A stretch of 45,448 nucleotides of DNA, taken from Planktothricoides sp. SR001 (GTDB taxonomy: Bacteria; Cyanobacteriota; Cyanobacteriia; Cyanobacteriales; Laspinemataceae). The translations under genes and the position numbers were made by a program. Location of the stretch: positions 67,974-113,421 of the forward strand of contig NZ_LIUQ01000008.1 in assembly GCF_001276715.1 (NCBI RefSeq), read 5' to 3'. Below are positions 24,703-32,562 of this stretch, one piece after another; positions within the stretch are counted from its first letter, which is position 1, and each line of letters begins with the position of its first letter. Under the pieces are notes generated by a model. The model searched no databases, was not told where the DNA came from, and saw only the letters and a list, made by a program, of their open reading frames with translations.

Positions 24703-25536
24703 TTATTCTCCTGAGCCATTGAATGTTTCTTGTCTTAAACCTTTTAAAAAATCTCGTATAATTAATTCAGGGTTGTTTTGGCAAATATTCTCAGTATAAT
24801 AGCGAATCAAATCAATACCTTGACCTAAAATATAATGATTCGCATCTTCTAAATCATTATCCTCATCAGGAATAATATCCAATATTCCACATTTACCCCG
24901 ATCGATAATCAAAAATGAAACTTTTTTAGTAATTTTGCCTTTAGCTGTGATCATTCTCAGAATAGTATTAGGTGAAAAAATAATATTCATTCGATCTAAA
25001 ATATCAGCAATTTTTGCTTCTACTTCAGTATTAAATCTAACGTTATTCCAGATATAATCATTTTTATCATCAACCGTCTTCAATTCTATTTCCGGATCAT
25101 CGTTCCGATCTGGTAAATCATTTTGATACAAATCACCTTCGCTATAACTATTTAATAAAAGGTGTCCTAGTTGTCTCGCCTCACTAACATTAGCAACACC
25201 AATACTTGCACCAGTGAGATTAGCCCCTTCAAGATTAATTGAAATAATTTGATTATGATGAATATGATGATGTCTTCTTCCGATAAATCGTCTCAAAACT
25301 AATTCTAAATTATCTTGATTGACGGGTTCATCAAAAGCCGTTGATAACTTTCGCCATAACACAGAACTAGAATTTCTAATGGATTGCAATTGATAATGAG
25401 CATCTTTAGCAATCTCAGGATACGACTTTCCTTGTAAAACTTGACGAATAATAATCTTTTCAAGTTTCTTTAATCGAGGTAGGTGTTTTTCCTCTAATGC
25501 CGTTGTCACAAAATATAATGCTTCCTCAGTTTTCAT
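24703..25536 (-). CDS. HTH (vWA-MoxR-associated type) protein with a degenerate PD-(D/E)XK-like domain
   Basis: Residues 1-88 carry the same helical N-terminal module as the STAND protein at 9868 (QGKSYPEIAKDAHYQLQSIR, then VLWRKLSTAF). A short pentapeptide-like run follows (INLEGANLTGASIGVANVSE). The C-terminal domain (about 165-270) keeps the helix NTEVEAKIADILDRMNIIFS and strand FLIIDRGKCGILDI of a PD-(D/E)XK-like nuclease fold. The Asp expected just before FLI is Ser (KVSFLI), and the E-x-K position reads LDII, so cleavage is doubtful. A second copy with the same plan lies at 31704-32562. The ATG at 25536 faces the GTPase operon across a 253-bp divergent region. A regulator or sensor for that operon is possible. 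Confidence 0.65.
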   Translation of the reverse strand: MKTEEALYFVTTALEEKHLPRLKKLEKIIIRQVLQGKSYPEIAKDAHYQLQSIRNSSSVLWRKLSTAFDEPVNQDNLELVLRRFIGRRHHHIHHNQIISINLEGANLTGASIGVANVSEARQLGHLLLNSYSEGDLYQNDLPDRNDDPEIELKTVDDKNDYIWNNVRFNTEVEAKIADILDRMNIIFSPNTILRMITAKGKITKKVSFLIIDRGKCGILDIIPDEDNDLEDANHYILGQGIDLIRYYTENICQNNPELIIRDFLKGLRQETFNGSGE

Positions 25537-25789
25537 AATCTATATTACCATTATTTATTGACTTATAACTGTCTGGATTAACTAATTATTAAAAAAATCT
25601 GTAATTTTAGTGATGTTTCTAGTATAGCTACCATCTTGCAATTTGCCAAGAAGTTGCTTATAAAGAGGATAGTGGGATGGAAACCTGAGAGGTGTAAGAC
25701 CCCCGTTAATGTTTAACATAGAAACAGGAGTTCTCTCGGTTTGTTTTCTATTCCCCACATGAATTATCCACTATTCTGCAACAATTCTA
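25537..25789. promoter_or_regulatory. Divergent promoter region of the HTH gene and the GTPase operon
   Basis: This 253-bp region must drive both the minus-strand HTH gene and the plus-strand GTPase operon. It is AT-rich on the left and mixed on the right; no clear -35/-10 pair or operator palindrome was found. The GTPase start at 25790 has no evident ribosome site. Confidence 0.4.
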
Positions 25790-26383
25790 ATGAGAACGTT
25801 AGCAGTTTTTGGTCAAGCAGGGTCAGGAAAAACCAGTCTATGTAATAGTTTATTTGGACTCGATTGGAAAACAGATCCGGCTATAGATTGTACTAAATAT
25901 ATCTTTCAACATGAGGGAAATTTTGTTTCCTCCTTAAATGGGAATCAACTTCCCAAGTGGAAACTACATGATACTCCCGGAGTTGGCGCCAGCGAAGCTA
26001 TTCACCAAAATCGTTTACAAGAACTTCTTGACACATTTCATCAAGTAGATGTGATTGTTTGGGTTATTCAAGCTGATACTCGTGCGTTACGAGTCGATCA
26101 AGAAGCCATCCTAGATTTAACCAGTAACGGTCAAAAAATACCAGAATCTCATTTAATTTTGGCGATTAATCAAATTGACCGAGTACACCCAGAAAATTGG
26201 GATGAAGTTAATAATATTCCTTCCCCCGAACAACAGGAAATTATCCCCGACAAAATCAGTCTGGCTCATAAGCGATTTTCCCCTTATCTACCAATATCCA
26301 TAGAACATATTATACCTTGTTCTACTGTTAAAAGATATGGTTTAGATCGGCTTGTATATACAATTCATCAACCATTTTTATAA
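25790..26383 (+). CDS. Era/YfjP-like small GTPase (first of a pair)
   Basis: A 197-residue P-loop GTPase: G1 GQAGSGKTSL (8-17), G3 DTPG near residue 62, G4 NQID near residue 126, and a G5-like PCSTVKRYGLDRL. It is only a G domain, with no KH or other appended domain. It resembles its downstream neighbour through VIQADTRALRVDQ and an unusual shared stretch, WDEVNNIPSPEQQEII, against WNDKFNFPSPEQQDNI in the second GTPase. The two therefore arose by duplication and may form a heterodimer. The ATG at 25790 starts the operon; the next gene begins 13 bp after its stop. Specific cargo or effector unknown. Confidence 0.82.
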   Translation: MRTLAVFGQAGSGKTSLCNSLFGLDWKTDPAIDCTKYIFQHEGNFVSSLNGNQLPKWKLHDTPGVGASEAIHQNRLQELLDTFHQVDVIVWVIQADTRALRVDQEAILDLTSNGQKIPESHLILAINQIDRVHPENWDEVNNIPSPEQQEIIPDKISLAHKRFSPYLPISIEHIIPCSTVKRYGLDRLVYTIHQPFL

Positions 26384-26396
26384 GTGAGGTTGTGTT

Positions 26397-27203
26397 ATGT
26401 CACTTTTTCGCAAAAAAGCATCTCCAGAACAAGAAGAATTGATTAATAAGTTGCGGGGAGTGTTAGGGGAAAAAGAATTTAAACAGTTTCAACGTATCTT
26501 TCAGGATGAATTAGCCAAACCTCCTAAAGTTGCCATTATTGGCAAGGCGGGAGTAGGTAAAAGTACCACGATTAATTCACTTTTTAACTTAGAAGAAAAA
26601 GTAAGTCATAGCGATACAGGAACAACCCAAGACAATGAAAGAGTTGTTAGGCTTCCTGATGGGGGTAAATTAGCAATTATTGATATGCCCGGTATGGGGG
26701 AAGATATTGAATTAGATCGACGATATATGGAAATATATCGCAGAGTATTACCTCAATCTGATGTAGTTCTATATGTTCTACAAGCCAATACTAGAGCCTT
26801 AGAACAAGATCAAAAAATTCTCAGAGATATTGTTCAAAATGTGATGGGTAATTTAAAAGGAAGATTAGTCATTGGACTAAATCAAGTGGATAAAATGGGT
26901 CCAGGTAGCTGGAATGACAAATTTAATTTTCCGTCTCCCGAACAACAAGACAATATAGATCGTAAGTGTCAGGATATTCAGCAAAAAATCAGTCGCAGTT
27001 TAGGTATTAAAGTTGAGCAAATTGAATATTATTCAGCTATTAAGCGATTTCGTCTTTGGTTTTTGTTAGCTGCAATTATTAAATCAGCAGGTAATGTCGG
27101 GTGGAAATTTTCCCTTAATCCGGCTGACCCCACAGAGCTTATTTCTAATCCAGAAGTAAGAGAATTTGTCAGAGATCAATTAGCCCAAGAAAATGAAGAT
27201 TAA
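26397..27203 (+). CDS. Era/YfjP-like GTPase (second of a pair)
   Basis: A 268-residue protein. A helical N-terminal extension (residues 1-44, SPEQEELINKLRGVLGEKEF) precedes the G domain: G1 GKAGVGKSTTI (49-59), G2 region TGTTQDNERVV, G3 DMPGMGED, G4 NQVDK and a G5-like SAIKRF. The C-terminal 60 residues contain a hydrophobic helix (LWFLLAAIIKSAGNVGW) and a final NPEVREFVRDQLAQENED that may be the interaction or membrane part. The start is ATG at 26397 with a GAGG site. Similarity to the upstream GTPase includes the SPEQQ insert after the G4 loop. The layout recalls GTPases of conflict and membrane-associated systems, but the family is too broad to fix a role. Confidence 0.84.
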   Translation: MSLFRKKASPEQEELINKLRGVLGEKEFKQFQRIFQDELAKPPKVAIIGKAGVGKSTTINSLFNLEEKVSHSDTGTTQDNERVVRLPDGGKLAIIDMPGMGEDIELDRRYMEIYRRVLPQSDVVLYVLQANTRALEQDQKILRDIVQNVMGNLKGRLVIGLNQVDKMGPGSWNDKFNFPSPEQQDNIDRKCQDIQQKISRSLGIKVEQIEYYSAIKRFRLWFLLAAIIKSAGNVGWKFSLNPADPTELISNPEVREFVRDQLAQENED

Positions 27204-27221
27204 AAAGGAGTTATTGTTTTT

Positions 27222-27806
27222 ATGCGTTACGACGAGTTAGATAGCGATGAAAAATTAATAATAAACGGTTACAGACAACTCGCAAAATCTGAAAAGCAAG
27301 CTGTTCTTGCTAGTAAACAATCATTGAAAAATTGGTTACAAACCACACTAAGCTCTATTTGGAATAAGGTATCATCATTTTTTGATGATTTTTGGAATTG
27401 GTTTAAAGGTGCTGTTACTCCCAAAGGAAAGTTTCATCAAGTTTGGGTCGAGCATAATGAAGTTGATGAAAATGGCACAACAGGCATGAAAATTCATGCT
27501 AAATTTGATGTTGATAATGTCAAAGATATCCCTTGTGGTGCGGCTGTTTATTTCCATTATAGCTCTGGGGAGAAATTAAAGGATTTCAACAATTCTTATA
27601 GGACAACGGCTGGTCAAGTATCTGTTGGTAAAGATTTTACTCCTGCCTATGAAGGAAGCATTTACAATGATTTTGAAATATTTATGCCCTCTAGTGAATT
27701 ACACCTGGGAAATGGTAAATATGACTTAAAATTTGACATTAGGCTATATGTAAAAGGAGGAGATTTTTTTGCTGAATCAAATTGGGTTTATTTCACATAT
27801 GGTTGA
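27222..27806 (+). CDS. Two-domain protein: YRQL-AVLASK helical module plus beta-sandwich domain
   Basis: Residues 1-45 form a helical module (DELDSDEKLIINGYRQLAKS then EKQAVLASKQSLKNW) shared with the next gene product. Residues 45-66 are an aromatic amphipathic stretch (SSIWNKVSSFFDDFWNWFKG) that could lie on membranes. Residues 70-194 are a beta-rich domain with FHQVWVEHNEVDENGTTGMK, YFHYSSGEKLKDFNNSYRTT, GQVSVGKDFTPAY, FMPSSELHLGNGKYDLKF and a closing NWVYFTY. I recall that domain as a conserved bacterial module of unknown function attached to varied proteins. AAGGAG lies 11 bp before the ATG, and the gene starts 18 bp after the second GTPase. It may be an adaptor or effector of the GTPases. 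Confidence 0.72.
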   Translation: MRYDELDSDEKLIINGYRQLAKSEKQAVLASKQSLKNWLQTTLSSIWNKVSSFFDDFWNWFKGAVTPKGKFHQVWVEHNEVDENGTTGMKIHAKFDVDNVKDIPCGAAVYFHYSSGEKLKDFNNSYRTTAGQVSVGKDFTPAYEGSIYNDFEIFMPSSELHLGNGKYDLKFDIRLYVKGGDFFAESNWVYFTYG

Positions 27807-27836
27807 TTTATCTAAATTTATTATCAGGTGGGTCAA

Positions 27837-28052
27837 ATGGATGAGCTAACTGCTGAAGAAGAAGCAATTATCAGAACTTATCGCCAGTTATCTAAATCTC
27901 AAAAAAAAGCTGTTTTAGCAAGTAAATGGTCTTTTCAAGAATGGATCAAAGAATCTGTCAGATGGGTGTGGGACAGAATGGTTGAATATGCGATGCAGGA
28001 GGCACTCACCGCTTTGTTTAATTACTTAAAACAGCAATTTTTTGGATATTGA
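27837..28052 (+). CDS. Small YRQL-AVLASK module protein
   Basis: A 71-residue protein: MDELTAEEEAIIRTYRQLSK then SQKKAVLASKWSFQEWI, matching the first 45 residues of the preceding protein at roughly half of the positions (DEL, YRQL, KS, AVLASK, W). The remaining part is an amphipathic helix rich in Trp, Phe and Tyr (VRWVWDRMVEYAM, LFNYLKQQFFGY). ATG 27837 is preferred because AGGTGG sits five bases upstream; a GTG nine bases earlier is the alternative. It is the last gene of the GTPase operon, followed by a perfect 14-bp inverted repeat. It could compete with, or assemble with, its larger relative. Confidence 0.7.
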   Translation: MDELTAEEEAIIRTYRQLSKSQKKAVLASKWSFQEWIKESVRWVWDRMVEYAMQEALTALFNYLKQQFFGY

Positions 28053-28079
28053 TATGACGATATGCATGAATTTTATTGT

Positions 28080-28137
28080 GTAATAAATGGTATGAAAATT
28101 TTACATTTTTATACCATTTATTACATCGTTTTTTATT
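28080..28137 (+). terminator. Terminator-like hairpin of the GTPase operon
   Basis: Perfect 14-bp arms GTAATAAATGGTAT (28080-28093) and ATACCATTTATTAC (28111-28124) enclose a 17-nt loop and are followed by ATCGTTTTTTATTT. The stem is AT-rich but long, and it is the only such structure after the operon. Confidence 0.7.
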
Positions 28138-28241
28138 TAAAAATTATCTAAAAAATCAAAACAATAATAAAACATTAACTTCCCACCTGGTAACGGGGGG
28201 ATCGAGTAAATAGATTATTAAACATCACGAAACTCTTTCTA

Positions 28242-28280
28242 ATTCGGTAAGCTGATATTCGGTTATCTCACAATTCCGCT
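28242..28280. repeat. Second copy of the hydrophobic-leader repeat
   Basis: This 39-bp segment matches 22887-22925 at about 35 positions. In one frame it reads FGKLIFGYLTIPLFSFYVKW and then stops near 28353. It may be the stump of a gene related to the toxin-tip-like gene at 22744, or part of a mobile repeat. Confidence 0.55.
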
Positions 28281-28510
28281 ATTCAGCTTTTATGTGAAGT
28301 GGCACGGTAACCAAGAGATTTACTGGATTTGTGCCACCAGTATCATAGCCAAATAGAACCCGCAGGCCATTGCTAACTATAAAGAGCATCTATTGTAGGG
28401 TCGTAAGCATTGCGATTTTAAAATAAATAACTGTAAAAATAAATGAGATATATTTTTATGCTGATTATGCTAAATTAGTTATGGTTTTTTAGGCATTTTT
28501 TTATTTTTTT

Positions 28511-28753
28511 GTAGGGGCGAAGCATGACCGCCAAGAATCTAGGGGTTAAAAGCAAAAATTTGTTACGGTCATGCTTCGCCCATAAGCATTTTTCTATTTT
28601 CACCAAGATAAAATTGCTGTAGGACGAATTGCATTCGCCCCCTACAGCGGTTTTCAGGTTGGTCAACCACAAATATCCGTAAGGGCGAAGCATTCCGGTA
28701 CAAAATTTTTTATTTTGTTCCAGAGATTATATGCGGTCATGCTTCGCCCTTAC
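28511..28753. repeat. REP-like inverted-repeat cluster
   Basis: Three stem-forming units lie here. 28515-28530 pairs perfectly over 16 bp (GGGCGAAGCATGACCG) with 28566-28581. The stretch 28618-28646 has GTAGG..GAAT facing ATTCGCCCCCTAC. 28679-28693 pairs over 15 bp (GTAAGGGCGAAGCAT) with 28739-28753. They belong to the same family as 2682 and 23848. No gene lies in 28138-28908. Confidence 0.8.
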
Positions 28754-28908
28754 TAAGCATCTGTGGTCTATTCAGCAGAAAAACGCTGTAAAAACTAAGA
28801 AATACTCTGATATGCAAATAGAAAAAATCGGTGAATTCCTGGAGTGTGTGGTGCCGAATTTTATCGGTTTGTATTTGAATAGACAATTCTGGCTTTCGTA
28901 AAGCACTC

Positions 28909-29139
28909 GTGTCTAATAGTTATTTAGGAGTTGCTTTGAGTGTGATTCTGTTGCTGTGGCATTGGCAGGAGAAAATCAACCCCGATCGCCCCCAAAGACC
29001 CCTGCTAATTTCCCTAGCGGTGGTAATTCTGTTAACCTTGCCCTACCCCAGCGGTGGATCCACCGCAAAGGCGATCGCGCTGCCTCCAGCATTCAACCAA
29101 CCCATCAACGGTTATTGTCCGCAGCTACTCGACATATAA
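28909..29139 (+). CDS. Possible small membrane protein or gene fragment
   Basis: A 76-codon frame from GTG 28909 encodes two hydrophobic segments (YLGVALSVILLLWHW and PLLISLAVVILLTLP) and a hydrophilic tail. There is no ribosome site and no family match. The surrounding 1.2 kb is otherwise repeat or unassigned DNA, so this could be a remnant. Confidence 0.3.
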   Translation: MSNSYLGVALSVILLLWHWQEKINPDRPQRPLLISLAVVILLTLPYPSGGSTAKAIALPPAFNQPINGYCPQLLDI

Positions 29140-29247
29140 TTTATTGGTGCGTTACCGCACGGAACGGCACCTTACTGATAGAGGCTTTGCGTAAGTTCTG
29201 ATAATAGTCAAAAAGTGGTGATCGGTAGCGATCAAGGAGTAAAGCAG

Positions 29248-31683
29248 ATGAATAACCAAATTCCCACAACGGTTTTCGGCAGCAGACCTTATTTAACTCT
29301 GAACAACCAAGGACAAACCATCCGGTTGGAATTGACTAAACCCATGCATATTTTAGGCAGACCGGGAGGAGACGCAGACCTGCTAGTTCCCGATCCTCAG
29401 CAGTGGAAAATTCTGTCCCGCGAGCACGCGGTGCTTCGGCAAGTGGGGAATGACTACCATATTTATGATGGCTATAAAAATAAACCCAGTACCAATGGCT
29501 TATTTTTAGACCGAACTCGGATTACTTTTACTGATGGGTTGGCACTCACCAATGGGATGGAATTACGGATCGGTCAAAATCCCAAAGACCAGATTATTTT
29601 GACTTATTTTAATCCGATGGGAAATCAAGCGGTTGTTCCCCCGTCCCAGTCTTCAGTTGATCTGAATGATCCGAAAAATCAGCCATTGGTTATTGGTCGC
29701 GACCCGGTGAACGCGCAGCTACATTTAGAAAGCCCGATTATTTCCCGGCGCCACGCTATTATTCAACCCGCAGGGACGGGGAAATATCTATTACAAGATA
29801 TTAGTACCAATGGGGTTTTTGTTAATAATCAACGAGTCCAAGATAAAGCCGATTTGACTGATGGGGATACGATTAAAATTGGCCCTTATACTTTGGTCTT
29901 GCGAGGCGATCGCCTGCATATTCTGGATCGGGGCAACCAAATTCGCTTAGATGCAGAAAATTTGCTGCGAATAGTTTACGATCAAAAAGAGAAGAAAGAG
30001 ATACGATTACTAGACCAGGTTAATTTGGCGATCGAACCAGGGCAGTTTGTGGCTTTGGTGGGGGGAAGTGGGACGGGAAAATCTACATTAATGAAGACAT
30101 TATTAGGGATTAGTCCGACCACGGAAGGAAAAGTTTATCTAAATGGCGATGATTTGCGGCAAAACTTTAATATGTATCGCCATCAAATTGGTTATGTGCC
30201 CCAAGATGACATTATTTACAGTCAATTAACCGTGACTGAAGTATTGACTTATGCCGCTAAATTGCGCTTACCCCCAGATATCGATCTAAAAGAAGTCGTG
30301 GAAAAAACTCTCAAAGATATTGAAATGAAAAATTTGGAGAATAACTTGGTAGCTACCCTGAGTGGGGGACAGCGTAAACGAGTTAGTATTGGGGTAGAAT
30401 TGTTAGCCGATCCCAAATTATTCTTTTTAGATGAACCCACCTCCGGTTTAGATCCGGGTTTGGATAAAAAGATGATGGAATTGTTGAGAAAATTAGCGGA
30501 TCAAGGTCGGACGATTATTTTAGTCACCCATGCTACGGCGAGTATTATGATGTGCGATCGCATTGTGTTTATGGGACTTGGGGGGCGGTTATGCTACTTT
30601 GGCGAACCCAAAAACGCCTTTCAATTCTTCAAAATCACCAGCGGTAATTTTGCTGATATTTACAATCAACTAGAAAACGAAGCCAACGTGAAAAAATGGG
30701 CTGCTGATTTTCTGAAATCTCCTTACTATCACCAGTATATCACTAATTATCTCAGCAGTCAACCGCCAAATACTCAAAATTCTAGTCATCAAAGTTCTGC
30801 CCAAAAATCAGCCAAACCGAAACAAGTCAAAGCTTCACCTTGGCAGCAATTATCGATTTTAACTAATCGCTATTTAAAACTAATTCTCCGTGACAAGATC
30901 AACTTAGGATTATCTCTCCTTACTGCCCCGGTAGGAATTGGTTTAATGACATTAGCCCTGCCAGATAAAAATCCTTTAATTGGCGAACCAGAACCATCCT
31001 TAGCCCCCTTAGCCCTTAAAGTATTATTTGTGTTTACTTGTGCGGCACTTTGGGTGGGATTTTCAGCATCTTTGCAAGAAATTGTCAAAGAAGCAGCGAT
31101 TTATTTTCGAGAAAGATTAGTAAACTTAGGACTAGGGGCTTACCTGGGTTCAAAGGCGATCGTCTTAGGGCTTTTAGCCCTAGGGCAAACCCTCTTAATT
31201 ACCGGGACAATTTTACTGGGCTTCAAATCTCCAGAACCGGAATTAATGTCCTGGTCTTTAGGGTTAGCTATTACCACATTTCTCTCTTTATTTACTTGTA
31301 TCAGTCTGGGATTGCTGGTTTCTGCCGTGGCCAAAAATAGTTCTCAAGCCAATAGTGCGTTGCCGCTTTTATTGCTACCACAAATTATTTTTTCTGGAGT
31401 GTTATTTAAAATGGAAGGGGCAGCAGAAAAGATTTCTTGGTTCATGTTGAGTCGTTGGTCTGTGGGGGCTTATGGTTCTTTGGTAAATGTCAATGCAATG
31501 GTGCCAAACGCGGAGAATTATTTAGATGCGAATTTGAACCCCATTCCCCTCCCTTTTGATCCGACTCCAATTTATGATGCAACTTGGGATAACTTAGCCT
31601 CAAATTGGGGGATGTTGTTGTTGCATACGGGGATATATTTGGGTTTGACTTTGTGGGTGCAAAAGCGCAAGGATATTTGCTAA
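29248..31683 (+). CDS. FHA-domain ABC transporter, ABCG type
   Basis: About 811 residues. Two N-terminal FHA domains (roughly 15-105 and 135-215) show the RP..D..V.D....SREHA and IGRDP.....L..P.ISRRHA patterns that bind phosphothreonine. The ATPase domain has Walker A GGSGTGKST (about 271), signature LSGGQRKR (about 370) and Walker B LFFLDEPTSGLD (about 391). The C-terminal 280 residues hold six hydrophobic segments of an ABC2-type membrane domain, for example IVLGLLALGQTLLITGTILL. The order ATPase then membrane domain is that of ABCG half-transporters, so it should dimerise and export a lipid-like or unknown substrate under phospho-signal control. ATG 29248 is preferred over upstream GTG codons because AAGGAG lies eight bases before it. 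Confidence 0.92.
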   Translation: MNNQIPTTVFGSRPYLTLNNQGQTIRLELTKPMHILGRPGGDADLLVPDPQQWKILSREHAVLRQVGNDYHIYDGYKNKPSTNGLFLDRTRITFTDGLALTNGMELRIGQNPKDQIILTYFNPMGNQAVVPPSQSSVDLNDPKNQPLVIGRDPVNAQLHLESPIISRRHAIIQPAGTGKYLLQDISTNGVFVNNQRVQDKADLTDGDTIKIGPYTLVLRGDRLHILDRGNQIRLDAENLLRIVYDQKEKKEIRLLDQVNLAIEPGQFVALVGGSGTGKSTLMKTLLGISPTTEGKVYLNGDDLRQNFNMYRHQIGYVPQDDIIYSQLTVTEVLTYAAKLRLPPDIDLKEVVEKTLKDIEMKNLENNLVATLSGGQRKRVSIGVELLADPKLFFLDEPTSGLDPGLDKKMMELLRKLADQGRTIILVTHATASIMMCDRIVFMGLGGRLCYFGEPKNAFQFFKITSGNFADIYNQLENEANVKKWAADFLKSPYYHQYITNYLSSQPPNTQNSSHQSSAQKSAKPKQVKASPWQQLSILTNRYLKLILRDKINLGLSLLTAPVGIGLMTLALPDKNPLIGEPEPSLAPLALKVLFVFTCAALWVGFSASLQEIVKEAAIYFRERLVNLGLGAYLGSKAIVLGLLALGQTLLITGTILLGFKSPEPELMSWSLGLAITTFLSLFTCISLGLLVSAVAKNSSQANSALPLLLLPQIIFSGVLFKMEGAAEKISWFMLSRWSVGAYGSLVNVNAMVPNAENYLDANLNPIPLPFDPTPIYDATWDNLASNWGMLLLHTGIYLGLTLWVQKRKDIC

Positions 31684-31703: not shown

Positions 31704-32562
31704 TTAGGCATTACTCAAATGGTCTAAAAAATCTTGCACAATGCGATCGCTCTCTTTTAGACATTCTGCAACATCGTAATCAGCAATCAGGTGAATTCCC
31801 TGAGATTTCAATGATTGAAAAAGGCGCGATCGCTCATCATCTCCGGGCATAATTTCGCCGACATTTTCCGGCGATATCCCCTTTTTTACCGCCAATAATC
31901 CCCACTTGCCTTGATAACAAATTAAAAACCCTGGCACCGAATTTTCTCGACCTGTTGCCGAAGTTAGCCTGCCTTGAGCATTGGGGAAAAATAACACCCC
32001 GGTTCGGTCTAATGCTTCGGCTATTTTTACCTCAGATTCCGAGTCAAACTCCCACCCATGCCATTGATAGGTTCTCTCTGGAAAGCGATCGATTTTCTCC
32101 GATGAAGTGAAGTGGCGGTGGCGAAATTTTGACTGAGGTGGTGAATTTTCCTCTGCGTTTTTTTTGCTGAGAATCATTAACACAGAAATGTGCTTCACTC
32201 AAATCACCCAGGATATTTTCTCCACCAATATTGTCTCCACTAATACTAGCCCCACTGAGATTAACTTCAATGACTAAATTGCGCGGTTTTAAATGATGTT
32301 GCTGTGCGTAGCGCCTAATTACTGATTTAAGATTACTTTTTTTCACCTTTTCCCCAAAAGCGTCTGATAATTGTTGCCAAAGTTTTGCCCCAGCGCATTT
32401 TAAATATTCCTTATCATAGCCAGAAACATGAGCGATCGCCTCATAAGAAGTGCGTCCTTGCCAACATTCCCGAAAAATGATTTCTTGAACATCGTTCAGC
32501 GGTTCTTCTTCTGCTTCTAAAACCGTTTCTGCGAGGGTCAATGCTTCGTCAACACTCATCAT
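31704..32562 (-). pseudogene. Frameshifted HTH plus PD-(D/E)XK-like gene (paralogue of 24703-25536)
   Basis: Two overlapping minus-strand frames form one gene. The first (from ATG 32562) carries the HTH module (WQGRTSYEAIAHVSGYDKEY, then GAKLWQQLSDAFGE) and a pentapeptide-like NLSGASISGDNIGGEN. The second (to 31704) carries the nuclease-like domain: DSESEVKIAEALDRTGVLFF, GFLICYQGKWGLLAV, and a terminal YDVAECLKESDRIVQDFL. Similarity to the paralogue leaves the first frame and joins the second near an A8 tract (T8 on the plus strand at 32158-32165). Removing one A restores a single frame. The PD Asp and E-x-K residues are again missing (VPGFLI, LLAVKK). Possible reasons are a real frameshift, slippage-based expression or a homopolymer sequencing error. 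It converges on the FHA-ABC gene, 20 bp apart. Confidence 0.72.

Follow-up and report, generated by a model that had tools for sequence, protein, structure and literature searches.

A recurrent cassette of paired GTPases and small helical module proteins in Planktothricoides sp. SR001

Here we describe a gene cassette from Planktothricoides sp. SR001, in which two paralogous GTPase genes are followed by genes for small helical modules and faced by a divergent gene with a helix-turn-helix (HTH) domain. It lies in a window, the whole stretch of DNA analysed, of 45,448 nucleotides (contig NZ_LIUQ01000008.1, positions 67,974 to 113,421). The gene order is kept across loci: the divergent HTH gene, in most cases of HTH+NB-ARC type, faces G1, G2, a variable gene and then two modules. 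This order was found again in several cyanobacterial families and in one Acidobacteriota-labelled MAG, rather than its genes occurring mostly apart. No named system matching the unit was found in Pfam, NCBIfam, PADLOC, PHROGs or the literature, where the matches are weak or confined to the GTPase part; this agrees with the preliminary description of the locus. The features of the window locus are as follows.

24703..25536, minus strand: divergent HTH gene, with an N-terminal sigma-r4-like HTH (residues ~1-90)
25537..25789, no strand: 253-base region between the divergent genes, presumed common control region
25790..26383, plus strand: G1, GTPase 1, 197 aa, ordinary motif order
26397..27203, plus strand: G2, GTPase 2, 268 aa, ordinary motif order
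27222..27806, plus strand: M1, 194 aa, N-terminal helical module and C-terminal strand-rich domain
27423-27803, plus strand: strand-rich C-terminal domain of M1, the variable slot
27828..28052, plus strand: M2, 74 aa from GTG (ATG at 27837), stand-alone module and C-terminal tail
28079..28125, plus strand: terminator-like perfect hairpin, A+T-rich, with a T run behind it

The four reading frames, the divergent frame and the hairpin were all recovered where they had first been placed, and the proposed unit of two GTPases plus two module-sharing proteins held, the GTPase pair being kept together across loci. The hairpin (28079-28125) has at least 20 pairs, followed by TCGTTTTTTA; its folding energy of -24.2 kcal/mol was equalled by none of 200 shuffles (z -6.0). 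The perfect hairpin originally described is thus present, and is called terminator-like and not a proven terminator because it holds only 3 G-C pairs. A structured RNA of known family was ruled out, as an Rfam scan gave none at gathering scores, and no tandem repeats were found.

G1 and G2 are homologous, as had been proposed: they are 32% identical across 182 aa (E 6e-30). Both exceed the Pfam cut-off of 21.9 bits for MMR_HSR1 (PF01926), G1 with 36.2 and G2 with 55.4 bits, while the top Pfam match of G2 is AIG1/GIMAP (PF04548; 57.7 bits, cut-off 27), for which G1 stays below the cut-off at 17.9. We take both to belong to the TRAFAC class of GTPases. The G3 motif reads DTPG in G1 and DMPG in G2, and the solved-structure relatives of G2 are headed by Der and Era, with Toc34/33, GIMAP and septins also among them. 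The stretch W....N.PSPEQQ..I after G4, formerly regarded as a special mark of the pair, proved to be a family trait, found in loose form in 29 of the 35 GTPases compared, including two E. coli plasmid GTPases. Recent duplication was not borne out either: on one tree build with a midpoint root, G2 joins other G2s, next single-gene GTPases, and not its neighbour G1, so that the two look like old paralogues and not close duplicates, subject to long-branch warnings for the G1 clades, for permuted G2 against the rest and for G2 against the layout-A GTPases. A first genome-contig scan using the window G2 gave no match.

The window G2 is not permuted; in relatives, at a second SR001 locus and in the Acidobacteriota-labelled MAG, a circularly permuted form (cpG2) with the motif order G4-G5-G1-G2-G3 was found. 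It groups with ordinary G2 in the tree, under the same long-branch warnings, and BLASTP matches it to the window G2 at E 2.6e-37 versus 0.16 for the YlqF of SR001. According to PMC2430557, the permuted YRG GTPases (YlqF/RsgA/YqeH) have this same order, with the cut lying between strand 3 and helix 2, and the cpRAS order is G3-G4-G5-G1-G2. The cut of cpG2 lies elsewhere, between helix 3 and strand 5. The C-terminal part of cpG2 holds strand 4 (LILQANTR), whereas its counterpart in SR001 YlqF, VLEVLDARIP, assigned by eye, is N-terminal. The different cut and the BLASTP value rule out membership in the YRG family. An assembly artefact was likewise ruled out, since G398, a single-contig genome of the same species, has this permuted frame as well, and so do assemblies of other species. 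An AlphaFold model of cpG2, although poor (pLDDT 56.7, pTM 0.54), has the strand order expected for a permuted GTPase; in a Foldseek search with this model no PDB entry reached E <= 0.001 (best 6e-3), and nearly all of the 50 matches listed were GTPase entries. Viral origin was only partly ruled out: neither cpG2 nor the beta domain of the slot has relatives in viral contigs, and the latter has none in phages, but G2 (E 2.6e-20) and cpG2 (2.4e-13) match PHROG 16468, of function not known, so phages carry G2 relatives too.

The modules of M1 and M2 are 44% identical over 50 aa (E 9e-15), so the common N-terminal module, originally described as 45 residues long, is not due to chance and extends over ~50 residues. 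Modules are helical, about 60-70 aa long and marked by a motif resembling S-x-x-[SA]-[FL]-x-x-W, and occur across system loci in several copies, both stand-alone and fused. When 2235 ORFs from 38 loci were searched with a profile of 5 window/C7 sequences, it retrieved 32 ORFs at E <= 1e-7 (27 without repeats; 22 outside the profile set), each directly downstream of a G2 gene. Run on 388 class genomes, it gave five SR001 copies and a weak SR001 row (C108, 9.3e-4), with one weak row each in 8 other genomes; the weak row in G378 (0.0025) is a zinc-ribbon module of a system locus. The modules alone are too short for locating the system. In Pfam, NCBIfam and PADLOC the modules scanned matched no family, and neither a toxin nor an effector domain of known type; the best PDB profile E was 0.038. 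A weak match to a McrB-like domain in M1 was taken as probable chance (E 0.025, 0.074 with a 3-row profile and 0.0053 in NCBIfam), and the structure model of M1 is poor (pLDDT 51.5).

The preliminary description called both module proteins Trp-rich and amphipathic. Tryptophan makes up 58/1397 in modules versus 163/10339 in window ORFs of at least 150 aa, and both window modules exceed 95% of shuffles in hydrophobic moment; as a general trait this did not stand, being seen in 6 of 21 modules and in none of the 7 Laspinema-type ones, and the best amphipathic helix of M2 is its N-terminal one, which lacks Trp. The highest Kyte-Doolittle mean over 19 residues is 1.53, and the modules therefore have no transmembrane helix; action at the membrane is weakly backed.

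Twenty system-type loci, chosen by GTPase match and some from one species, were compared with nine related-GTPase controls: a divergent HTH gene lies within 1 kb at 16/20 versus 0/9 (it is absent at 4/20), and a downstream module gene at 17/20 versus 1/9, the latter marginal (E 0.005). Of the 16 divergent loci, 14 have a similar spacing (142-319), the window locus among them. The HTH of the window gene is common to the HTH+NB-ARC genes facing the operon at most other loci; where those have NB-ARC, the window gene has a C-terminal part of its own. Of the former assignment as HTH/nuclease-like, the HTH stood; the nuclease likeness (REase-like) is by eye only, Pfam having found no nuclease in the gene, its G398 orthologue or two paralogues. 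The family has 34 matches in the SR001 genome, so the presence of one next to the operon is not very informative. Of 20 other HTH loci inspected there, one faces a restriction-type gene (GmrSD_N).

The slot that separates G2 from the stand-alone modules differs in content, with a module plus beta domain in the window, a beta domain preceded by a short module-like stretch at L109, DUF1036 (55.2 bits) at L111 and nothing at L110. Among 348 sampled class genomes the beta domain was found in SR001 only; it was seen elsewhere in G710 and Runella, where it stands together with DUF1036 at the C-terminus of one astacin-like protein. A search for plasmid relatives of DUF1036 found none.

The distribution is patchy. 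A system-type locus is present in 7 of the 14 family genomes, and the same-genus genome G399 gave no match at E 1e-10; one further family match (G400) is not this system, its GTPase lying, by eye, in a longer frame after kinase-like sequence. Versions of the cassette occur on a Gloeocapsa plasmid and in the high-GC Acidobacteriota-labelled MAG, around which a phylum search gave a match in at least 1 of 396 genomes, the MAG itself. Genome-search counts are lower bounds, part of the first-look candidates having been scored. Between two genomes of the same species the flanking genes differ at 3/2877 bases, G1 at 2/591, G2 at 9/792 and the HTH gene at 15/828, versus 29/222 in the M2 part, and M1 is lost by fusion; at the window locus the module genes have thus diverged far more than the other parts compared. 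The sequence behind the hairpin also differs, less than M2, and the difference between the strains could be a single recombination event. The permuted-G2 locus barely differs between strains (5/3458 bases).

Several described systems resemble the cassette in part. The window pair, like the DO-GTPases (double-GTPases), consists of paralogous GTPases of the TRAFAC class. A conserved glutamate in Walker B also marks the DO-GTPases, and the G3 motifs of the window pair read DTPG and DMPG. In Kaur et al. 2020 (PMC7159879), DO-GTPase systems hold TRAFAC GTPases, often two paralogues, with variable partners and a predicted counter-invader role, and are nearly absent from cyanobacteria. Membership was rejected: the operons read have no GAP1 gene downstream or fused, nor a GAP1-like, tubulin or HSP70 gene, and the genes behind the GTPases encode 194 aa or less, being modules, slot domains or zinc-ribbon modules; the present kind of cassette instead has multi-copy modules of small size and is faced by an HTH/STAND gene. 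As PMC7159879 and PMC8195603 describe them, effector-associated domains (EADs) are small non-catalytic domains in several copies, stand-alone or fused beside an NTPase switch. The modules are likewise multi-copy, stand-alone and fused to varying partners, but carry no recognised effector, and their partner is a GTPase pair. The GTPase part of LeoA (dynamin-like LeoA/LeoBC, PADLOC) matches G2 at E 1.1e-13, but over positions 18-177 of a 559-position profile, with no full-length match. Related enterobacterial GTPases of the YfjP/YeeP type have the post-G4 stretch in 2 of 3 compared, but are single GTPases with the C-terminal tail in cis and, at three loci, lack a divergent HTH gene of this kind.

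We tentatively favour, at a little under an even chance, a conflict cassette that is accessory, moves horizontally and is switched by the TRAFAC GTPase pair, with the modules as adaptors or effectors. The conflict-type function is one we infer, with more indirect support than before, because of the patchy presence, the turnover of module genes, the variable slot and the STAND-HTH neighbour. G1 and G2 would form a nucleotide-dependent heterodimer on which the modules, multi-copy and joined to various partners, may dock as EAD-like adaptors or effectors. Sensing of an invader or damage would change the GTP state, and modules would be released or assembled, perhaps at the membrane, and halt the cell; the HTH/STAND protein may control expression from the common divergent region. 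Somewhat less probable is the bolder claim that a GTPase heterodimer controlling polymorphic tiny modules constitutes an undescribed bacterial immunity, with an independent permutation of G2 (new cut, YRG order) in an otherwise unchanged operon, so that orthologues of both forms would be open to direct comparison.

AIG1 as top Pfam match of G2, and Toc34/33, GIMAP and septins among its solved relatives, would also suit a lineage-specific GTPase system of membrane or cell architecture (septin/dynamin/Toc34-like), whose modules are membrane anchors in trans and which remodels or marks membranes and takes no part in defence. Some YfjP-like relatives carry aromatic C-termini in cis (FYSWW, FFKW, WGLLFG) resembling some module ends, such as DLWDWLFG, but this likeness is by eye only and amphipathicity is weak; patchiness, module-gene turnover at the window locus and the plasmid and cross-phylum copies ill suit housekeeping, and we consider this reading unlikely. 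We rate no higher an addiction cassette of a mobile region, toxin-antitoxin-like, in which the GTPases restrain modules acting as small toxins. The small multi-copy genes and accessory distribution fit it, as do genes near several cassette copies that look HicAB- or VapBC-like by eye, but such genes are common in these genomes, the modules lack a toxin domain in the scans, and a pair of complete GTPases would make an antitoxin of unusual elaboration. Least probable, and quite improbable, is an anti-invader role without cell death, the GTPases coating or trapping an invader structure (IRG/GBP-like) with modules as recognition adaptors: co-occurrence of the beta domain and DUF1036 in the Runella protein fits binding over catalysis, but there is no known target and the beta domain is rare.

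Should the conflict reading be true, a compact GTPase-switched module system would join the conflict repertoire of cyanobacteria, and the G1-G2-module set would be easily made for biochemistry. Loss and fast change of module genes between strains would make it possible to test directly which part encounters the opponent. The ordinary and permuted forms of G2, which share one operon slot and even occur within a single genome, offer a natural experiment on cutting and rejoining a switch protein.

The operon under study comprises genes for two GTPases (G1 and G2) and two small proteins with a common module (M1 and M2), with the following features:

24703-25536, - strand: HTH gene, divergent to G1
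25790-26383, + strand: G1, 197 aa
26397-27203, + strand: G2, 268 aa
27222-27806, + strand: M1, 194 aa, with a C-terminal domain (27423-27803) besides the module
27828-28052, + strand: M2, 74 aa counted from GTG; an ATG lies at 27837
28079-28125: hairpin

The four genes are separated by 13, 18 and 21 bases, respectively. G1 and G2 exceed the Pfam cut-off for MMR_HSR1, and G2 also that for AIG1; the two share 32% identity in a stretch of 182 residues. Both contain P-loop, G3, G4 and G5-like motifs, and a hydrophobic residue at the position of the Ras catalytic Gln, as also found in GTPases activated by dimerisation. The module common to M1 and M2 is 44% identical over 50 residues, and the C-terminal domain of M1 is strand-rich in a weak predicted model. 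PHROG 16468 (function unknown) was matched by G2 (E 2.6e-20; GTPase pair at window 25790-27203) and by a circularly permuted G2 (cpG2; motif order G4-G5-G1-G2-G3) at locus L074, 4958-5797 (E 2.4e-13), which indicates that phages carry GTPases of this kind.

The cassette is recurrent. A second copy in the same genome, on the 3458-bp contig C7 (L018), consists of a divergent HTH+NB-ARC gene, G1, G2 and three modules. Additional loci came from G2 or cpG2 queries against 388 genomes of the class, 14 of the family and 388 of the order (class and order being samples), and from one contig scan that gave 9 loci, among which L125 is by eye a Der-like GTPase of the ordinary kind. Three layouts were assigned by eye from the ORFs. 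In layout A a single GTPase is accompanied by a small protein, ~72-97 aa long (G378, G394, G457, G489, G178 and a Gloeocapsa plasmid), by a zinc-ribbon+module protein of ~140 aa (G378, G394, G457, G489 and G580), or by both; the GTPase gene of G580 is, by eye, disrupted by TnpB-like gene pieces (L112 5295-7047). Layout B, with G1, ordinary G2 and modules, occurs in the window, its orthologue in the same-species genome G398, G710, G661 and G707, where G2 is frameshifted. Layout C, with G1, permuted G2 and modules, occurs on C7 and in G398, Oscillatoria sp. Prado101, KTt_bin-1839 (divided between two contigs), Phormidium pseudopriestleyi, Oscillatoria S11.Bin022, two Laspinema species and a 'Thermoanaerobaculum' (a genus of Acidobacteriota) soil MAG.

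Among 20 system-type loci, picked by GTPase match and including three from the same species (window, L074, L075), a divergent HTH gene was located within 1 kb at 16 and at least one module match downstream at 17; the nine control loci with related GTPases had no HTH gene and one marginal module match (E 0.005). No HTH gene was found within 1 kb in G580 (an HTH+NB-ARC-like gene lies farther away, beyond the insertion), G457, Gloeocapsa and the Acidobacteriota-labelled MAG, and no module match in G178 and Gloeocapsa, whose small proteins are beyond the profile's reach, or in KTt, where the contigs end. The module profile, built from five window and C7 sequences, was run on 2235 ORFs from 38 loci and detected 32 ORFs at E <= 1e-7 (27 without repeats; 22 absent from profile building), each positioned directly behind a G2 gene. 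At higher E values the profile gave five zinc-ribbon modules (4e-5 to 2e-3), one ORF of the own genome without GTPase linkage (9.8e-4), L053's small gene (0.006) and four further rows at 0.066 or above, among them the L109 protein (0.39) in the slot between G2 and the stand-alone modules. This slot is occupied in the window by a module plus beta domain, in G710 by the same beta domain (59% identical) with a short module-like start and in G707 by a DUF1036 protein; G661 has no slot gene. An astacin-like protein of a Runella plasmid (L043 3209-4660) carries both beta domain and DUF1036 C-terminally.

The apparently independent permutation of G2 is the most surprising single element of the cassette. 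In layout C the G4/G5 half precedes the P-loop/G3 half in a single open frame, and seven complete cpG2 have 279-330 residues. The C7 cpG2 (L018 1080-1919, - strand) adjoins an ordinary G1, as do those at L074, L107 and L119-L123, and it matches window G2 in two pieces of swapped order (43.5% over 131 residues, E 2.6e-37; 48.6% over 107 residues, E 3.4e-29). In a single midpoint-rooted tree, with cpG2 rotated before alignment and long-branch warnings on the G2-group joins, the seven cpG2 form one clade (100/99), adjoined by three G2 in ordinary order (all ten together 100/97) and next by the five included layout-A GTPases (91/93). At the junction the old C-terminus (PADPxELADPEV) continues into the old N-terminal helix, as would be expected if two copies had fused and then been trimmed. 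Strand order was as expected in a weak AlphaFold model (pLDDT 56.7). The cpRAS paper PMC2430557 lists YRG (YlqF/RsgA/YqeH) and cpRAS as the permuted kinds known in 2008 and places the YRG cut between strand 3 and helix 2; cpG2 is instead opened after helix 3, ahead of strand 5. In the own-genome YlqF the strand-4 counterpart precedes G4 (by eye), and C7 cpG2 matches this protein only at E 0.16. A YRG system was therefore rejected, and the permutation apparently arose independently of YRG.

Between the window and G398, divergence peaks at 27200-28250. Differences amount to 0/411 in the upstream gene, 15/828 in the HTH gene, 2/591 in G1, 9/792 in G2, 29/222 in M2 and 3/2466 in the downstream gene (M2 versus flanking genes, Fisher p 4e-31); non-coding 28250-29249 also differs (13 mismatches and small gaps). 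M1 is lost in G398, with its first ~20 residues fused to M2. Generally fast change of these cassettes is disfavoured, since the permuted locus differs at just 5/3458 bases.

The HTH of the window's divergent gene is common to the HTH+NB-ARC genes at most other loci. The whole protein has 34 own-genome matches including itself, most in the HTH part only, and 20 inspected loci (L148-L167) had very different neighbours, one being a GmrSD_N protein; most of these genes encode 448-510 aa, the HTH+NB-ARC type being judged by length. The family is possibly a general STAND regulator fronting accessory cassettes. NB-ARC is recorded as an accessory domain of cyanobacterial sigma-like proteins in PMC11119718. 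In the window protein its place is taken by a different domain, and two paralogues match this protein over nearly the full length; by eye, none of these proteins retains the full catalytic set of a PD-(D/E)xK nuclease, though the C101 paralogue retains an Asp. Another HTH + nuclease-like gene, broken into two frames, lies at 31704-32562 (- strand), and a 71-aa glycine-rich membrane-type peptide (L155 3430-3645, - strand) is divergent to an NB-ARC-size HTH gene.

Related arrangements were also seen. Larger related GTPases followed by 76-82-aa proteins, a further GTPase + small-protein layout, occur at L019 3544-5501 (own contig C118), L053 1940-3191 and L054 4914-6165; on C118 a vWA protein comes next. 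A small, mobilizable 5.9-kb E. coli plasmid (L046 387-2778) has consecutive EcsC-family, Cys-rich 145-aa and YfjP-like GTPase genes. YfjP-like GTPases (L045-L047, L050, L115) bear a C-terminal tail with an aromatic end resembling, by eye, some module ends, in cis where the module is in trans.

LeoABC was rejected as an identity for the cassette, and because GAP1, which belongs to DO-GTPase systems, was not seen in the operons read, it was not classed with these. A similar working is described by Kaur et al. (PMC7159879) for GTPase-centred conflict systems and effector-associated domain (EAD) logic. Since the motifs are kept and a hydrophobic residue occupies the Ras Gln site, we propose that a G1-G2 heterodimer would be the switch, with modules acting as adaptors or effectors. 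The modules may act at membranes. Of 21, six have a hydrophobic moment above that of 95% of their shuffles, and a TM-like segment was absent from all. The cassette is classed with GTPase-centred accessory systems, as a variant of them, and from its accessory distribution, turnover, slot and STAND neighbour we infer that its outcome would be defence through self-limitation.
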